64,000 bases of DNA from contig JAFAZF010000040.1 in assembly GCA_019239915.1 (NCBI GenBank), forward strand, positions 1 to 64,000. Reading direction: 5' to 3'. The stretch is from Sphingomonadaceae bacterium (GTDB lineage: Bacteria; Pseudomonadota; Alphaproteobacteria; Sphingomonadales; Sphingomonadaceae). This document shows, piece after piece, positions 28,134-57,045 of the stretch; positions within the stretch are counted from its first letter, which is position 1, and each line of letters begins with the position of its first letter. The notes below the pieces were generated by a model. That model saw only the letters and a program-made list of their open reading frames with translations, did no database searches and was not told the DNA's origin. Position numbers and translations under genes: made by a program.

Positions 28134-28729
28134 CGCGCGATCACGTCGCGTTCACGCAGCCAGGCCAGCAGCGGCAGCAGCGGCAGGCCCATCACCGTGA
28201 AATGGCTGCCCTCGATGCGCTCGAACAGCTGCGCGCCCATGCCCTCCAGCCGATAGCAGCCGACACAAGCGAGGATAGTCTCCCCCTCCGCATCAAGGTA
28301 GGATTCGAGAAAGGCGTCCGTAAAGGCGCGGACATGAAGCTTGGTGGCGTCGACATGCCGCCACACCGGCACGCCGTTCTGGCATGCCACCGCCGCGCTG
28401 ATCAGCTTATGCGGCCTTCCCCACAGCTGCCGGAGCTGCATCGCGGCTTCGGTTCGATCCTCGGCTTTGTCCAGCATGGTGCCGTCTTCGAGTTCGAGCG
28501 TCGAATCGCAGCCGAGCACGAGCGCGCCTGGCAACCGCCGCGACAACGACAACGCCTTCAGCTCGGCGAGCGCGTCGGCGAGCTGCCGCGCGTCATGCCC
28601 TTCCGCGCGCAGCGAGGCTTTCGCGGCATCCTCGTCGACGCTCGGCCGCACCGCCTCGAATGGCACCGCGGCGGCGGTCAGCATCGCACGCCGGCTGGCG
28701 CTGCCGGATGCGAGCACCAGGCGCGTCAC
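28130..28729 (-). CDS. Maf-like nucleotide pyrophosphatase
   Basis: A 199-residue Maf/HAM1-like protein beginning LVLASGSASRRAML, with VLGCDSTLELEDG and the acidic substrate-contact residues in AVACQNGVPVW. Maf proteins hydrolyse non-canonical or modified NTPs to prevent their incorporation. The length is typical for the YceF group. It overlaps both ppsR and aroE by 4 bases and is thus the middle gene of a tightly coupled trio. Confidence 0.92.
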   Translation of the reverse strand: MTRLVLASGSASRRAMLTAAAVPFEAVRPSVDEDAAKASLRAEGHDARQLADALAELKALSLSRRLPGALVLGCDSTLELEDGTMLDKAEDRTEAAMQLRQLWGRPHKLISAAVACQNGVPVWRHVDATKLHVRAFTDAFLESYLDAEGETILACVGCYRLEGMGAQLFERIEGSHFTVMGLPLLPLLAWLRERDVIAR

Positions 28730-29565
28730 GCCGTTTCCGCCGCTTCGTCTTGCACGGGGCTGCGCCGCTCGTTGACGAGGTTGATGATCGCCGCCGCCGT
28801 TTCCTCGATCGAACGACGCGTGACGTCGATCACCGGCCAGCCATTGTCGGAGAACAACCGTCGCGCATAGGCGACCTCGCTCATCACCCGCTCCTGATCG
28901 ACATAGGCGGTTTCCGGCACCTGGTTGAGCGAGAGCAGTCGGTTGCGGCGCACCTGGATCAGTCGATCGGGGCTTGTGGTGAGTCCGACGACGAGCGGAT
29001 GCTGCAGCCGGAACAGCGACGGCGGCGGCGGCGCCTCCACCACCAGCGGGATGTTGGCGACCTTGTAGCCGCGGTTGGCGAGGTAGATCGATGTCGGCGT
29101 CTTGGACGAGCGCGAGACTCCGGCAAGCACGATATCCGCTTCCTCCCAGTCCTCGGCGCCGACGCCGTCGTCGTGCGCAATCGTGAACTGGATCGCCTCG
29201 ACGCGGGCGAAATAGGCGGCATCGAGCGCATGCTGCCGCCCCGGGCGGGTATGCGCGGTGCGGCCGAGCATCCGCGACAGGGCTTCGATCACCGGATCCA
29301 GCGCCGACACCAAGGGAATACCGAGGGATTGGCAGCCGATCTCGAGCCGCTCGCGCAGCTTCGTCTCCGCGAGCGTGAAGATGACGATCCCTGGCCGCTG
29401 GCCGATCTCGACGAGCACGCGCTCGAGATGCCCCTCCGAGCGCACCATTGGCCAGAAATGCTTGATCGTCTCGACGCCTTCGAACCGCGCCAGCCCCGCC
29501 TTCACGACCATGTCGAGCGTCTCGCCCGTCGAATCCGACAGCAGATGGAGGTGGTGAACCGCCAT
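28726..29565 (-). CDS. ppsR: pyruvate/phosphate dikinase regulatory protein (kinase-pyrophosphorylase)
   Basis: A 279-residue DUF299 protein. It has HLHLLSDSTGETLDMVV at the N-terminus, the P-loop-like GVSRSSKTPTSIYLAN near the middle and the AYARRLFSDNGWPVIDVTRRSIEETAA tail. It reversibly phosphorylates PEP synthase or PPDK using ADP and removes the phosphate with Pi. The gene points away from the DnaA-box gap. A homologue of this gene next to hemE flanks the known origins of Caulobacter and Rickettsia. Confidence 0.92.
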   Translation of the reverse strand: MAVHHLHLLSDSTGETLDMVVKAGLARFEGVETIKHFWPMVRSEGHLERVLVEIGQRPGIVIFTLAETKLRERLEIGCQSLGIPLVSALDPVIEALSRMLGRTAHTRPGRQHALDAAYFARVEAIQFTIAHDDGVGAEDWEEADIVLAGVSRSSKTPTSIYLANRGYKVANIPLVVEAPPPPSLFRLQHPLVVGLTTSPDRLIQVRRNRLLSLNQVPETAYVDQERVMSEVAYARRLFSDNGWPVIDVTRRSIEETAAAIINLVNERRSPVQDEAAETA

Positions 29566-29858
29566 GTCTCAGGCGTGGACGAGGCTGTGGATGATCATTG
29601 CCGAAACGCTAGCGGAACCTGCCGCTCGCCGAAAGGCACGCGATTCCGTGCCCACGATTGAGGGTAGCGTTCCCGCTCTATCCACATCGAACGGTCTATC
29701 CCCAGCGGATGTGGATAACGGGGAAGGCGCAGCCGACTCCGCGAGACTCCTGGATCGATGCGCGGTCAAGCTGTTGGCAAAAAAGGCCGGGCCGCCTAAA
29801 CCCCGCTGCCAAGCGCCCTACTATCTTCCTCAAAACTTGAATCTATGAATCTAAGGTG
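29566..29858. other. putative chromosomal replication origin (ppsR-hemE intergenic region)
   Basis: A 293-base gap between divergent ppsR and hemE. It contains a perfect DnaA box TTATCCACA (29710-29718, minus strand), CTATCCACA (29678-29686, one mismatch), CTATCCCCA (29696-29704, two) and TCATCCACA (29586-29594, minus strand, one). An AT-richer tract ends in TTGAATCTATGAATCTAAGG before hemE and could be the unwinding element. Five GANTC sites are present. Position next to hemE is the established origin location in Caulobacter and Rickettsia. Neighbouring genes run outward on both sides. Confidence 0.75.
29678..29718. promoter_or_regulatory. DnaA box cluster
   Basis: Three DnaA-box-like 9-mers lie within 41 bases: CTATCCACA at 29678-29686, CTATCCCCA at 29696-29704 and, on the opposite strand, the perfect TTATCCACA at 29710-29718. 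The first two are in direct orientation and the last is inverted relative to them. Confidence 0.7.
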
Positions 29859-30929
29859 ATGACGAGCAGCCTGTCCGCGATGCCAGCGATCGAAACGCAT
29901 CGTTCCTTGCTCGCGGTGCTGCGCGGCGAGCGGCGTGATCCTCCGCCGGTCTGGCTCATGCGCCAGGCCGGGCGTTATCTGCCGGAATATCGTGCGTTGC
30001 GAGCGACCAAGGGCGGATTTCTCGAGCTCTGCTACGATCCGCAAGCCGCTGCCGAGGTGACGCTCCAGCCGATCCGGCGGTTCGGCTTTGACGGTGCGAT
30101 CCTGTTTTCGGACATCCTCGTGATTCCCCACGCGCTCGGGCAGGATCTCGCGTTCGAGGCCGGCGAAGGCCCACGTCTCTCCCCGCCTCTGCTCGATGGC
30201 CTGCTCGATGGTCTTGCCGCTGCGCCGGAACGCCTGTCGCCGGTATACGAGACGGTGCGCCGGGTTGCTGCGGCGCTACCGGCGGAGACGACCTTCCTCG
30301 GATTCGCGGGTTCGCCCTGGACGGTCGCCACCTACATGGTCGCGGGTCAGGGCTCCAAGGATCATGCCGCCGCCCGCCGCCTCGCGTACAAAGACCGCGA
30401 TGCCTTCGCGGCGCTGATCGAGCGCATCGTCGCAGCGACGATCGACTATCTTCTTGGTCAGATCGATGCCGGCGTGCACGCCGTGCAGTTGTTCGACAGT
30501 TGGGCGGGAAGTCTCGCGCCGGCGGAGTTCGAGCGCTGGGTGATCGAGCCCAACGCCGCGATCACAGCGGCGATCCACGCCAGGCGGCCGGGAATACCGG
30601 TGATCGGCTTTCCGAAGGGCGCAGGCGCCAAGCTGCTCGATTATGCCCGCGGCACCGGTGTCGATGCGATCGGCCTCGACGAGACGATCGATCCGGTTTG
30701 GGCGGCCGAGTGGCTGCCGGGAGACATGCCGCTGCAAGGCAATCTCGATCCGCTCGCGCTCGTCGAGGGCGGCGAGCCGCTGCGCAACGCGATTGGGCGC
30801 ATTCTCGCGGCGCTCGCCGGGCGGCCACACGTCATGAACCTCGGCCACGGCATCATCCCGGAAACGCCGGTTGCCCATGTCGAAGAGGCGCTCGACCTGA
30901 TCCGCGGCGCTCGCTTCGCGCGGGATTGA
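29859..30929 (+). CDS. hemE: uroporphyrinogen decarboxylase
   Basis: A 356-residue HemE with the family motif PVWLMRQAGRYLPEYR and FGFDGAILFSDILVIPHALG, followed by GFAGSPWTVATYM and the C-terminal NLGHGIIPETP. It decarboxylates uroporphyrinogen III in haem synthesis. Start choice is uncertain: ATG 29859 has AAGG immediately before it, and GTG 29856 and ATG 29880 are in frame. It is the first gene to the right of the presumed origin. Confidence 0.95.
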   Translation: MTSSLSAMPAIETHRSLLAVLRGERRDPPPVWLMRQAGRYLPEYRALRATKGGFLELCYDPQAAAEVTLQPIRRFGFDGAILFSDILVIPHALGQDLAFEAGEGPRLSPPLLDGLLDGLAAAPERLSPVYETVRRVAAALPAETTFLGFAGSPWTVATYMVAGQGSKDHAAARRLAYKDRDAFAALIERIVAATIDYLLGQIDAGVHAVQLFDSWAGSLAPAEFERWVIEPNAAITAAIHARRPGIPVIGFPKGAGAKLLDYARGTGVDAIGLDETIDPVWAAEWLPGDMPLQGNLDPLALVEGGEPLRNAIGRILAALAGRPHVMNLGHGIIPETPVAHVEEALDLIRGARFARD

Positions 30930-41566: not shown

Positions 41567-42462
41567 TTAAATCGCTTCGCCGCTTAAGCGCTGGCAGATC
41601 ATATCAAGCTGATCGAGCGAGGCGTAGGCGAGGGTGACGCTACCGCCGACACCGTCATGCGCTATCGCGACCTTGAGCCCGAGCAGATCGCCAATCTGCC
41701 GCTCGAGCGCCAGAATATCGGGATCGGCGCTTTTATACTCGAGCTTGGGTTTGGGCTGGCTGCGTCCCGGTGCTCTGACGTTGCGCGCCAGCGCTTCCGT
41801 TTCTCGTACAGAAAGTCCGCGCGCGATCACCTGACGTGCCAGCGCTTCAGGGTCGGGTGCATTGGCGATAGCGCGGGCATGACCCATGGTCAGTTCGCCG
41901 CCGATCACCGACCTCCGAACCGCGTCTGGAAGATCCAGCAATCTCAAGAGGTTGGTAACGTGGCTCCGCGACTTGCCGACGAGTCTGCCGACCTCCTCCA
42001 TGCTGTGGCCATATTCGCGCACGAGCCGCTGATAAGCTTCGGCCTCCTCGATCGCGTTGAGATCGGCGCGCTGGACATTCTCAACAATCGCAATCTCGAG
42101 CGTCTCTTCATCCCCCAGCGCGCGAATGATCACCGGCACTTCATGTAGCCGCGCCTGCTGGGCGGCACGCCACCGCCGCTCACCCGCGACAATCTGGTAG
42201 GCTTCGCCGACAGGCCGCACGAAGATAGGCTGGATCAGTCCTCGTGTCGCGATAGATGCCGCGAGTTCTTCCAACGCCTCCGGATCGAAGTGGCGTCGTG
42301 GCTGGTGTGGGTTCGGTGCAATCGACGCCACCGGCAGCATTTGCACGCCTTGCGAACGCGCCGTGGCGGCGGCGATCGGCTGCTCCTGCCCCATTTCGCC
42401 AAGGAGCGCCGAAAGGCCGCGGCCGAGCCCCGTGCGCCGCCGCAGCGGCCCGCTATCCTCGC

Positions 42463-42466
<4 letters not shown>
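41567..42466 (-). CDS. parB: chromosome partitioning protein ParB (CTP-dependent parS clamp)
   Basis: A 299-residue ParB. It has an RRTGLGRGLSALLGE start, the CTPase/box II motif QIVAGERRWRAAQQARL, the helix-turn-helix GRLVGKSRSHVTNLLRLL and a C-terminal dimerisation domain. The conserved ENVQRADLNAIEEAEAYQRL segment is intact. It loads at parS and spreads to segregate the origin. ATG 42466 overlaps the parA stop by 4 bases. Two parS sites lie 1.3 and 3.2 kb upstream of it. Confidence 0.96.
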
Positions 42467-43241
<775 letters not shown>

Positions 43242-43245
<4 letters not shown>

Positions 43246-43859
43246 CGTTTCGCCTTGGGTCTTACCCTCCGGGCGATGATGATCACCGCGTCCGGATCCG
43301 TGATGCTCGGGATGGTCTCGAAGTCACCATGCCACGCCCTGCGCGCGTTTTCCAGTTCAGCCGGCCCACTGCGTCCCTTCGGAAGAACCCAACGCGTTCC
43401 GTGATGGGCCAGATGAGCAACCGACGCGAAGACGCGATCGAGGGGGGCGTATGCGCGCGCGACAATCGTATCGAAGGGACTGTCCGTCACGCGTTCAACG
43501 CGGATCGGCAAAACACGGGCCTCGAGGCCGAGCTGCTCCACCGTTCCCAGGAGGAAGTCAGCACGTCTTCGCCGCGGCTCGACCAGCGTGACGCAAAAAC
43601 CGAGTATGGCAAGGGGAATCCCCGGCAGACCGGCTCCGGATCCGACATCTAGGACGTTGCCGCACGCGAGTGGTGCCAGCTGGCACGAGTCGGCGAAATG
43701 CCGCGACCAGATGATGCGCTCTGAAGCTGAGGCGATAAGGTTCTGCGCCTGATTTTCCGCGATCAAACGAGCGGCGTAACGGTCCAAACGATCCAGCGTT
43801 TCACGTGAAACACCCGGCAAGCTGGCGATCCATGCGCGGGCGGCGTCTTCATCCATCAA
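43242..43859 (-). CDS. rsmG: 16S rRNA (guanine527-N7)-methyltransferase
   Basis: A 205-residue methyltransferase with the SAM loop [18 protein letters not shown], the conserved N-terminal [22 protein letters not shown] and a [14 protein letters not shown] motif. It methylates G527 of 16S rRNA. The stretch [10 protein letters not shown] near residue 16 is encoded by a parS palindrome, so the DNA serves two functions. It overlaps mnmG and parA by 4 bases each. Confidence 0.95.
43797..43812. promoter_or_regulatory. parS centromere site 1 (inside rsmG)
   Basis: CGTTTCACGTGAAACA matches the universal parS TGTTTCACGTGAAACA at 15 of 16 positions. It lies within the 5' part of rsmG, encoding V-S-R-E-T, about 14 kb from the presumed origin. 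Confidence 0.9.
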
Positions 43860-45629: not shown

Positions 45630-45645
45630 CGTTTCACGTGAAACG
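45630..45645. promoter_or_regulatory. parS centromere site 2 (mnmG-mnmE junction)
   Basis: CGTTTCACGTGAAACG is a perfect palindrome matching the parS core at 14 of 16 positions. It fits exactly between the end of mnmE (45646) and the mnmG start region. Confidence 0.9.
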
Positions 45646-56844: not shown

Positions 56845-56963
56845 CCCATGCTGCGATGCGGCATTCAGAGCCGCGCTTTTGGGCGCGTTCGCGGTTGCGA
56901 AAGGTCTGCGTCGGCAATCGTATCGGCTCACTGCTATCCGCAGGGGGAGCTCAATCACCTAAA

Positions 56964-57000
56964 CAGATAAAAAACGGGCCGATCCCGAAGGACCGGCCCG
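56964..57000 (-). terminator. strong Rho-independent terminator
   Basis: On the minus strand, CGGGCCGGTCC pairs with GGATCGGCCCG around a TTCG loop (56975-57000, one mismatch) and is followed directly by TTTTTTATCTG (to 56964). It is the clearest intrinsic terminator in the window. Confidence 0.8.
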
Positions 57001-57045
57001 AAAGTTTAGGAGAGGATGCCTGAAAGGCACAAGCTTTATGCTGCT
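56964..57045 (-). ncRNA. candidate small RNA with anti-Shine-Dalgarno-like loop
   Basis: Reading the minus strand, a -10-like AATAAT (57051-57056) precedes an ~80-base stretch. It contains a small hairpin GCCT-TTC-AGGC (57018-57028), an unpaired linker with ATCCTCTCCTAAAC (57004-57017) and a GC-rich terminator hairpin followed by six T. This order (5' hairpin, C/U-rich single strand, terminator) is typical of trans-acting alphaproteobacterial sRNAs that pair with ribosome-binding sites. No target is proven. Confidence 0.5.

Follow-up and report, generated by a model that had tools for sequence, protein, structure and literature searches.

To address the question whether a Sphingomonas-like bacterium has its chromosomal replication origin in the intergenic gap between ppsR and hemE, we analysed a window comprising the first 64 kb (positions 1–64000) of a 79,385-bp contig, which belongs to a draft genome of 85 contigs and 3.6 Mb. 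Open reading frames and profile matches placed the gap at 29566–29855 (290 bp). The minus strand on its left carries ppsR (28726–29565), a kinase-PPPase gene homologous to COG1806/DUF299 (PF03618, E = 1.2e-91; NF003742 over cut-off), whose product finds its best named matches in Sphingomonas and related genera. The plus strand on its right carries hemE (29856–30929; PF01208, E = 3.3e-113; TIGR01464 over cut-off). Both genes of this divergent pair are transcribed away from the gap, and the open reading frames and profiles thereby confirmed what the sequence-only reading had stated about its flanks. Further to the left, the minus strand continues with maf, aroE, coaE and a 3′–5′ exonuclease gene; beyond hemE on the right, the plus strand carries a gene for a UPF0093 membrane protein as well as rho. 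An AT-richer tract had also been claimed and was found: the gap contains 59% G+C compared to 63–72% in 2-kb steps of the window, and the 24 bp adjoining hemE (29832–29855) consist of 75% A+T as counted by hand, which makes them a candidate duplex-unwinding segment. A sigma-70 promoter scan of 29400–30000 found no promoter. The only matches of an Rfam scan were a tRNA and an mmgR-type small RNA, both distant from the gap; the latter, a member of the suhB/mmgR family, lies on the minus strand at 56961–57035.

According to the available text of PMC1914354, the hemE/COG1806 pair is the setting of the Caulobacter and Rickettsia origins, in agreement with the earlier proposal that hemE and a ppsR homologue flank both of them. 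The window shows the same arrangement, an intergenic gap between divergent hemE and COG1806 (ppsR) genes. The Cori region of Caulobacter crescentus shares the flanking pair as well as the presence of DnaA boxes in the gap, while the gap of Caulobacter and Rickettsia exceeds 400 bp as compared to 290 bp in the window (PMC1914354, same portion). Within the Sphingomonadaceae, oriC of Sphingopyxis granuli TFA was assigned to the vicinity of hemE, where DoriC predicts it for most members of the family, and the Sphingopyxis oriC is described as having a putative unwinding element along with putative DnaA boxes that are conserved (accessible part of PMC4741004); for Novosphingobium, an origin near hemE was likewise predicted (PMC4059872, excerpt). 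The window gap resembles the predicted origin of S. granuli TFA and other Sphingomonadaceae in its proximity to hemE, the conserved gene organisation and the putative boxes, and has a candidate for the putative unwinding element. It differs in that it comes from a different species and in that box spacing, 16-mer, GANTC density and triplet tract, all described below, are absent from the accessible text of PMC4741004. The location of the origin near hemE is thus already published for this family, and the window gap adds one more case. The ppsR–hemE gap is the expected place of the origin in this group; some of its sequence details are less expected.

With TTATCCACA as the DnaA box consensus, a motif scan of the gap identified one perfect box (TTATCCACA, box 4, 29710–29718, minus strand) and two boxes with one mismatch each, namely box 1 (TCATCCACA, 29586–29594, minus strand) and box 2 (CTATCCACA, 29678–29686, plus strand). 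A further box was read from the sequence (box 3, CTATCCCCA, 29696–29704, plus strand) and carries two mismatches. Of the one perfect and three near-perfect boxes proposed earlier, the perfect box and two with one mismatch therefore stand, while the remaining one is weaker than had been assumed. Three boxes with at most one mismatch compare to an average of 0.03 in dinucleotide shuffles of the gap, none of which (0/2000) reached three; the gap thus contains a DnaA-box cluster beyond chance, as is characteristic of the alphaproteobacterial hemE/ppsR origin. The whole 64-kb window contains six sites (pattern TTATNCACA, at most one mismatch), close to the 6.7 expected by chance, and three of these six are located inside the gap with the others scattered. 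It is therefore the clustering and not the number of boxes that constitutes the signal.

Conservation of the locus was analysed in relatives. We fetched 110 ppsR loci, own included, 80 from a contig collection and 30 from whole genomes, and compared 105 distinct gaps, own included, after removal of L024, four duplicates and a second copy of the window gap. The family alignment comprised 100 gaps, since five gaps outside the range of 230–370 bp were excluded. Among 60 genomes searched, 56 contained ppsR, own included; loci were read from 30 and 20 genomes plus one reached via hemE (G048), with G014, G015, G029, G052 and G055 left out. The order set consisted of 20 loci from other families, out of 26 ppsR-containing genomes without an earlier locus. 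In 109 of the 110 fetched loci, own included, ppsR and hemE diverge around the gap, the exception (L024) ending before hemE. The pair is divergent in all 20 loci of the order set as well, and none of their gaps lacks a box.

The 105 distinct gaps contain on average 2.26 boxes (at most one mismatch) compared to 0.02 for the reversed motif and 0.02 for shuffles; at least one such box occurs in 101 of them and none in four. Boxes 1 and 4 form the best conserved box columns of the family alignment, and boxes 2 and 3 also align with boxes of relatives. Boxes 1 and 4, both on the minus strand, keep a distance of about 123 bp: it falls between 121 and 126 bp in 82 of the 105 gaps if two mismatches are allowed and in 51 if only one is. 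Four of the 60 genomes lacked a ppsR match. Upstream of hemE, 12 boxes with at most one mismatch were counted in one of them (G033) and three in another (G054); in G016, a genome 86% complete and 7% contaminated, no box was found in the 700 bp upstream of hemE, and G034 gave no hemE match either.

Apart from the boxes, several further elements recur. The motif GCTAGCG (29608–29614) is present in 52 of the 105 distinct family gaps, with about two expected from a rough composition estimate. A conserved 16-mer, GTCAAGCTGTTGGCAA (29765–29780, plus strand), which may represent the core of a hemE promoter or an origin element, is the sole match with up to two mismatches in its own genome and is found within three mismatches in 71 of the 105 gaps. 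In 58 of the 59 gaps having both, the next TAANCCC begins exactly 32 bp after the start of the 16-mer. As a clean tag across relatives, the 16-mer was rejected: at up to two mismatches, 60 genomes gave 175 matches versus 139 for the reversed control (summed by hand). At the conserved spacing to the 16-mer lies TAAACCCCG (29797–29805, plus strand), a candidate for either a promoter −10 element or a remnant of the first box in a DnaA-box tandem. TTGGCA inside the 16-mer together with TAAACC at 29797 could form the hemE promoter; TAANCCCCG could equally be a DnaA-box relic, because several gaps of other families carry TTAATCCCC or TAATCCACA where the window has TAAACCCCG.

The gaps were also scanned with the sequences that we take to be the CtrA and IHF consensus sites. 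Neither the 105 family gaps, window included, nor the 20 order gaps contained an exact match to the CtrA site TTAA-N7-TTAA or its half site, or to the IHF consensus, for which diverged sites would escape such a scan. The sphingomonad gaps differ in this respect from Caulobacter Cori, and we rejected a CtrA-controlled Cori as a model for the window gap, which has no exact CtrA site.

Strand asymmetry provided a further view of the locus. As the own genome is a draft, skew was read on the own contig and in six single-contig relatives (G006, G024, G035, G039, G053 and G060), using GC skew and the octamer GGGNAGGG, which is presumably KOPS-like. In the single-contig congener G006, 20 spaced stretches of 20 kb were sampled: GC skew was positive in all 11 stretches between 0.1 and 2.3 Mb and negative in all nine remaining ones from 2.5 Mb to the end of the record. 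The best origin interval (4.32–0.11 Mb) includes ppsR at 0.009 Mb, and GGGNAGGG switches strand in the same interval; dnaA at 1.14 Mb lies 1.1 Mb off, within one arm. The switch from minus to plus is clear in G006, G035 and G039, where the best interval contains ppsR–hemE by both measures. In G060, the same interval is chosen by GGGNAGGG only, since GC skew prefers 5.16–5.44 Mb and ranks the ppsR–hemE interval second. In G024, GGGNAGGG gives a tie of two neighbouring intervals, one of them with ppsR–hemE, while the weak GC skew prefers 1.24–1.51 Mb; dnaA lies 0.36 Mb from ppsR in this genome, and the two-arm GGGNAGGG pattern taken at dnaA is only somewhat weaker. In G053, ppsR and dnaA share the best GC-skew interval and the few GGGNAGGG counts prefer 2.53–2.86 Mb. 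With dnaA taken as the origin, no two-arm pattern appears in G006 or G060.

The cumulative GC skew of the own contig is lowest at 30453, at a distance of 0.6 kb from the gap, a position that may partly reflect the divergence of genes here. GGGNAGGG occurs zero times on the plus and three times on the minus strand to the left, and eight times on the plus and four times on the minus strand to the right. The 80 kb scanned of the own contig carrying dnaA (C33) showed no clear skew switch at dnaA. An origin at dnaA, the alternative against which the sequence-only reading had set a skew minimum at the gap, was therefore rejected, as dnaA lies within one arm in G006 and lacks a clear switch in the own genome; as far as the draft allows, the skew agrees with the gap. 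In four relatives, the local cumulative-skew minima lie at a distance of 8–60 kb from the gap, with the G060 minimum falling on the edge of the stretch, so that skew alone cannot resolve the site; the boxes do.

Partition genes are located nearby. The minus strand carries parB (41567–42544; TIGR00180 over cut-off) and a gene for a ParA-type ATPase (42463–43245), whose 25 best matches listed belong to the ParA/MinD superfamily with none over cut-off, and which is probably of the parA type because of its position beside parB. Two sites on the plus strand resemble what we take to be the parS consensus, with one mismatch (43797–43812) and two mismatches (45630–45645), respectively. The parABS system said to lie 12–16 kb from the gap is thus found at about that distance, and in the four relatives read, parS-like sites occur approximately 8–15 kb from ppsR.

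The spaced box cluster, the ppsR/hemE setting, the asymmetry switch and the nearby par genes with parS-like sites together lead us to conclude with high confidence that the gap 29566–29855 represents the predicted chromosomal oriC. The initial proposal that the window spans the origin of its chromosome is supported by the boxes, the gene setting and the skew of the own contig and of relatives. During initiation, DnaA would load on boxes 1–4, and the DnaA oligomer would extend toward hemE over weak box relics onto a triplet and A+T-rich segment (29818–29855). Melting of this segment would permit loading of the helicase. Two forks would then depart in both directions, so that ppsR and hemE would each be read along the direction of their own fork, and ParABS would separate the new origins. 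The likely origin, and hence the replication arms, can in this way be fixed for a draft sphingomonad genome. Moreover, the 105 family and 20 order gaps reveal a recurring anatomy of box spacing, 16-mer, triplet tract and GANTC cluster in a well-studied family.

The putative unwinding start contains CTACTA (29818–29823, plus strand), i.e. two DnaA-trio units reading 3′-GATGAT-5′ on the bottom strand. Defining a tract as at least three C-(A/T)-(not G) triplets on the top strand within the last 120 bp of the gap, a definition for which the CTACTA of the window is too short, we found tracts in 54 of the 105 family gaps compared to 9.4 in shuffles, two on the other strand and six in the rest of the gap. 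The order gaps gave 10 of 20, compared to 2.0, zero and two, respectively. Narrower patterns were matched by 23 and 58 of the 105 family gaps versus 2.2 and 9.1 in shuffles. Only half of the tracts (32 of 64) lie within 16 bp of a box-like core. On the strand presumed to be bound, T occupies the middle position in 123 and A in 58 family triplets, and T in 24 and A in 16 order triplets, counts that come from related sequences and are not independent. The triplets of relatives are accordingly more often 3′-GTN-5′ than the published 3′-NAN-5′. By eye, the clearest tract is that of G033, where two tandem boxes and GCCC are followed by CAACAACAGCAACAACC; the tract pattern excludes CAG, and this tract was therefore read from the sequence and does not enter the counts. 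The locus concerned (L293, G033:C7) belongs to a small-genome relative, in which the CAACAACAGCAACAACC tract is also positioned upstream of hemE.

DnaA-trios are defined by a middle A, and deviant ones lacking it have been suspected (PMC8287927, available portion); the sphingomonad tracts, in which a middle T is commoner, differ from the published element in this point and offer a testable case of such a non-standard DnaA-trio. They resemble the BUS of the Bacillus subtilis type (Pelliciari et al. 2021) in that triplets on one strand follow a box-like sequence and precede A+T-rich DNA, a likeness most evident in the relatives L164, L170, L173 and L293. In our own version of the first step of the published search, which asks for three or more 3′-NAN-5′ triplets no further than 16 bp from a box with up to two mismatches, this pattern was matched by 27 of the 105 gaps of the family, compared to 7.3 in shuffles, and by 15 of the 20 order gaps, compared to 6.1. 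The window gap gave no match to it, with no box within reach of CTACTA, and was therefore rejected as a canonical BUS.

Five GANTC sites, the target of the methyltransferase CcrM, start at 29642, 29735, 29745, 29839 and 29847 (29642–29851), a number reached by 17 of 2000 shuffles of the gap, which is the densest 290 bp of the window for this motif. Family gaps contain 5.02 GANTC per 290 bp versus 0.85 in the 10-kb loci containing them, and 5.22 per gap versus 1.34 in shuffles; in the same 75 loci, 5.10 sites in gaps compare to 1.33 upstream of rho. The 20 order gaps contain only 1.48 per 290 bp, which indicates that it is mainly the family that shows the excess. Of the five positions, 29735 is the stable one, with a site in 89 of the 100 aligned gaps; the others turn over. 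The own genome encodes a CcrM of 375 amino acids, with the CcrM of 6pbd as best solved match (E = 2e-156), and a GcrA match. The idea that GANTC clustering is unique to the origin was rejected, since the 300 bp upstream of ccrM contained 2–11 sites in all 30 loci read (L223–L252), a density equal to that of the origin gap, and isolated GANTC-rich stretches exist at other places. In an own 495-kb sample, the maximum is six GANTC in 290 bp (G000:C33, about 6.4 kb, L153); the gap of QA11 (G060) has four sites and its sample reaches seven, and the gap of G006 has ten with a maximum of seven in its 400-kb sample.

In general, GANTC is over-represented in intergenic DNA of Alphaproteobacteria bearing CcrM, and several GANTC motifs had already been noted in the Caulobacter origin, which in this respect resembles the window gap; deletion of ccrM left replication control normal in Caulobacter (accessible text of PMC3973325). 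The ori2 of Agrobacterium bears GANTC motifs, and replication from it is affected by CcrM, whose overproduction had no significant effect on ori1 (PMC11514494, in the part available).

These data allow readings other than an origin. The gap might be a divergent promoter region under the control of DnaA and CcrM/GcrA, with replication starting elsewhere, for instance at dnaA. Such a view could draw on the regions upstream of ccrM, which are not taken as origins and have GANTC sites together with, in 10 of the 30 loci, a DnaA box, and on the 16-mer, whose fixed 32-bp spacing to TAANCCC could mark the core of a hemE promoter. We consider it very improbable, as the skew switches in the ppsR–hemE interval and not at dnaA (G006, G035 and G039 by both measures, G060 by GGGNAGGG), the own dnaA lacks a clear switch, and most family gaps contain several boxes at fixed spacing in contrast to the single box per ccrM locus in those 10 loci. 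A start within tens of kilobases but outside the gap, e.g. near the parS-like sites at 44–46 kb, would agree with the local skew minima of the four relatives 8–60 kb away. Nevertheless, the minimum of the own contig is only 0.6 kb from the gap, the gap holds three of the six window sites (at most one mismatch) with the other three scattered, and the box geometry is conserved across the family, so that we find a displaced origin of this kind scarcely credible.

The GANTC cluster taken alone is a different matter: we consider it somewhat more probable than not that it represents a GcrA/CcrM promoter signature for hemE/ppsR unrelated to the timing of replication. This is suggested by the equally GANTC-rich 300 bp upstream of ccrM (2–11 sites, 30 of 30 loci), by the stretch with six sites elsewhere in the own sample and the gap of QA11 with four sites against seven in its sample, and by the unaltered replication control of Caulobacter after ccrM deletion (PMC3973325, accessible text). 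It is opposed by the number of sites that the family maintains (5.02 per 290 bp, compared to 1.33 upstream of rho) while most positions turn over, and by the ten sites in the gap of G006 that exceed the maximum of seven in its 400-kb sample.

For the ppsR–hemE gap as oriC, one can tentatively speculate, with considerable doubt, that sphingomonads use a deviant DnaA-trio, in which weak tandem boxes beside hemE would guide DnaA onto single-stranded 3′-GTT/GAT-5′ with a middle T allowed or preferred, and that the CcrM cluster, kept in number though not in position, would make origin methylation a cell-cycle mark. If true, the proposed mark would parallel Dam/GATC at the E. coli origin. Among the listed results of a literature search outside supplements, most subscription papers and DoriC, no printed account was found of a triplet tract or GANTC density in Sphingomonadaceae; a search for DnaA-trios in Alphaproteobacteria matched only epsilonproteobacterial origins, and titles matched for GANTC, oriC, DnaA boxes and methylation included no sphingomonad.

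Some further observations concern GANTC sites and methyltransferase genes. Two genomes of one genus from another family (L164 and L165) have 13 GANTC in a ppsR–hemE gap of 418 bp, as compared to 0–3 in most other order gaps. In the own genome, a perfect DnaA box (G000:C12:31333–31341) precedes the start codon of ccrM by 27 bp. Counting the own locus, 10 of 30 loci have a box with at most one mismatch in the 300 bp before the aligned ccrM start, five of them within 45 bp; ccrM may be regulated by DnaA in sphingomonads. Finally, the own genome contains a PF01555 methyltransferase match with eight stop codons, apparently a dead gene (G000:C61:32758–33480).
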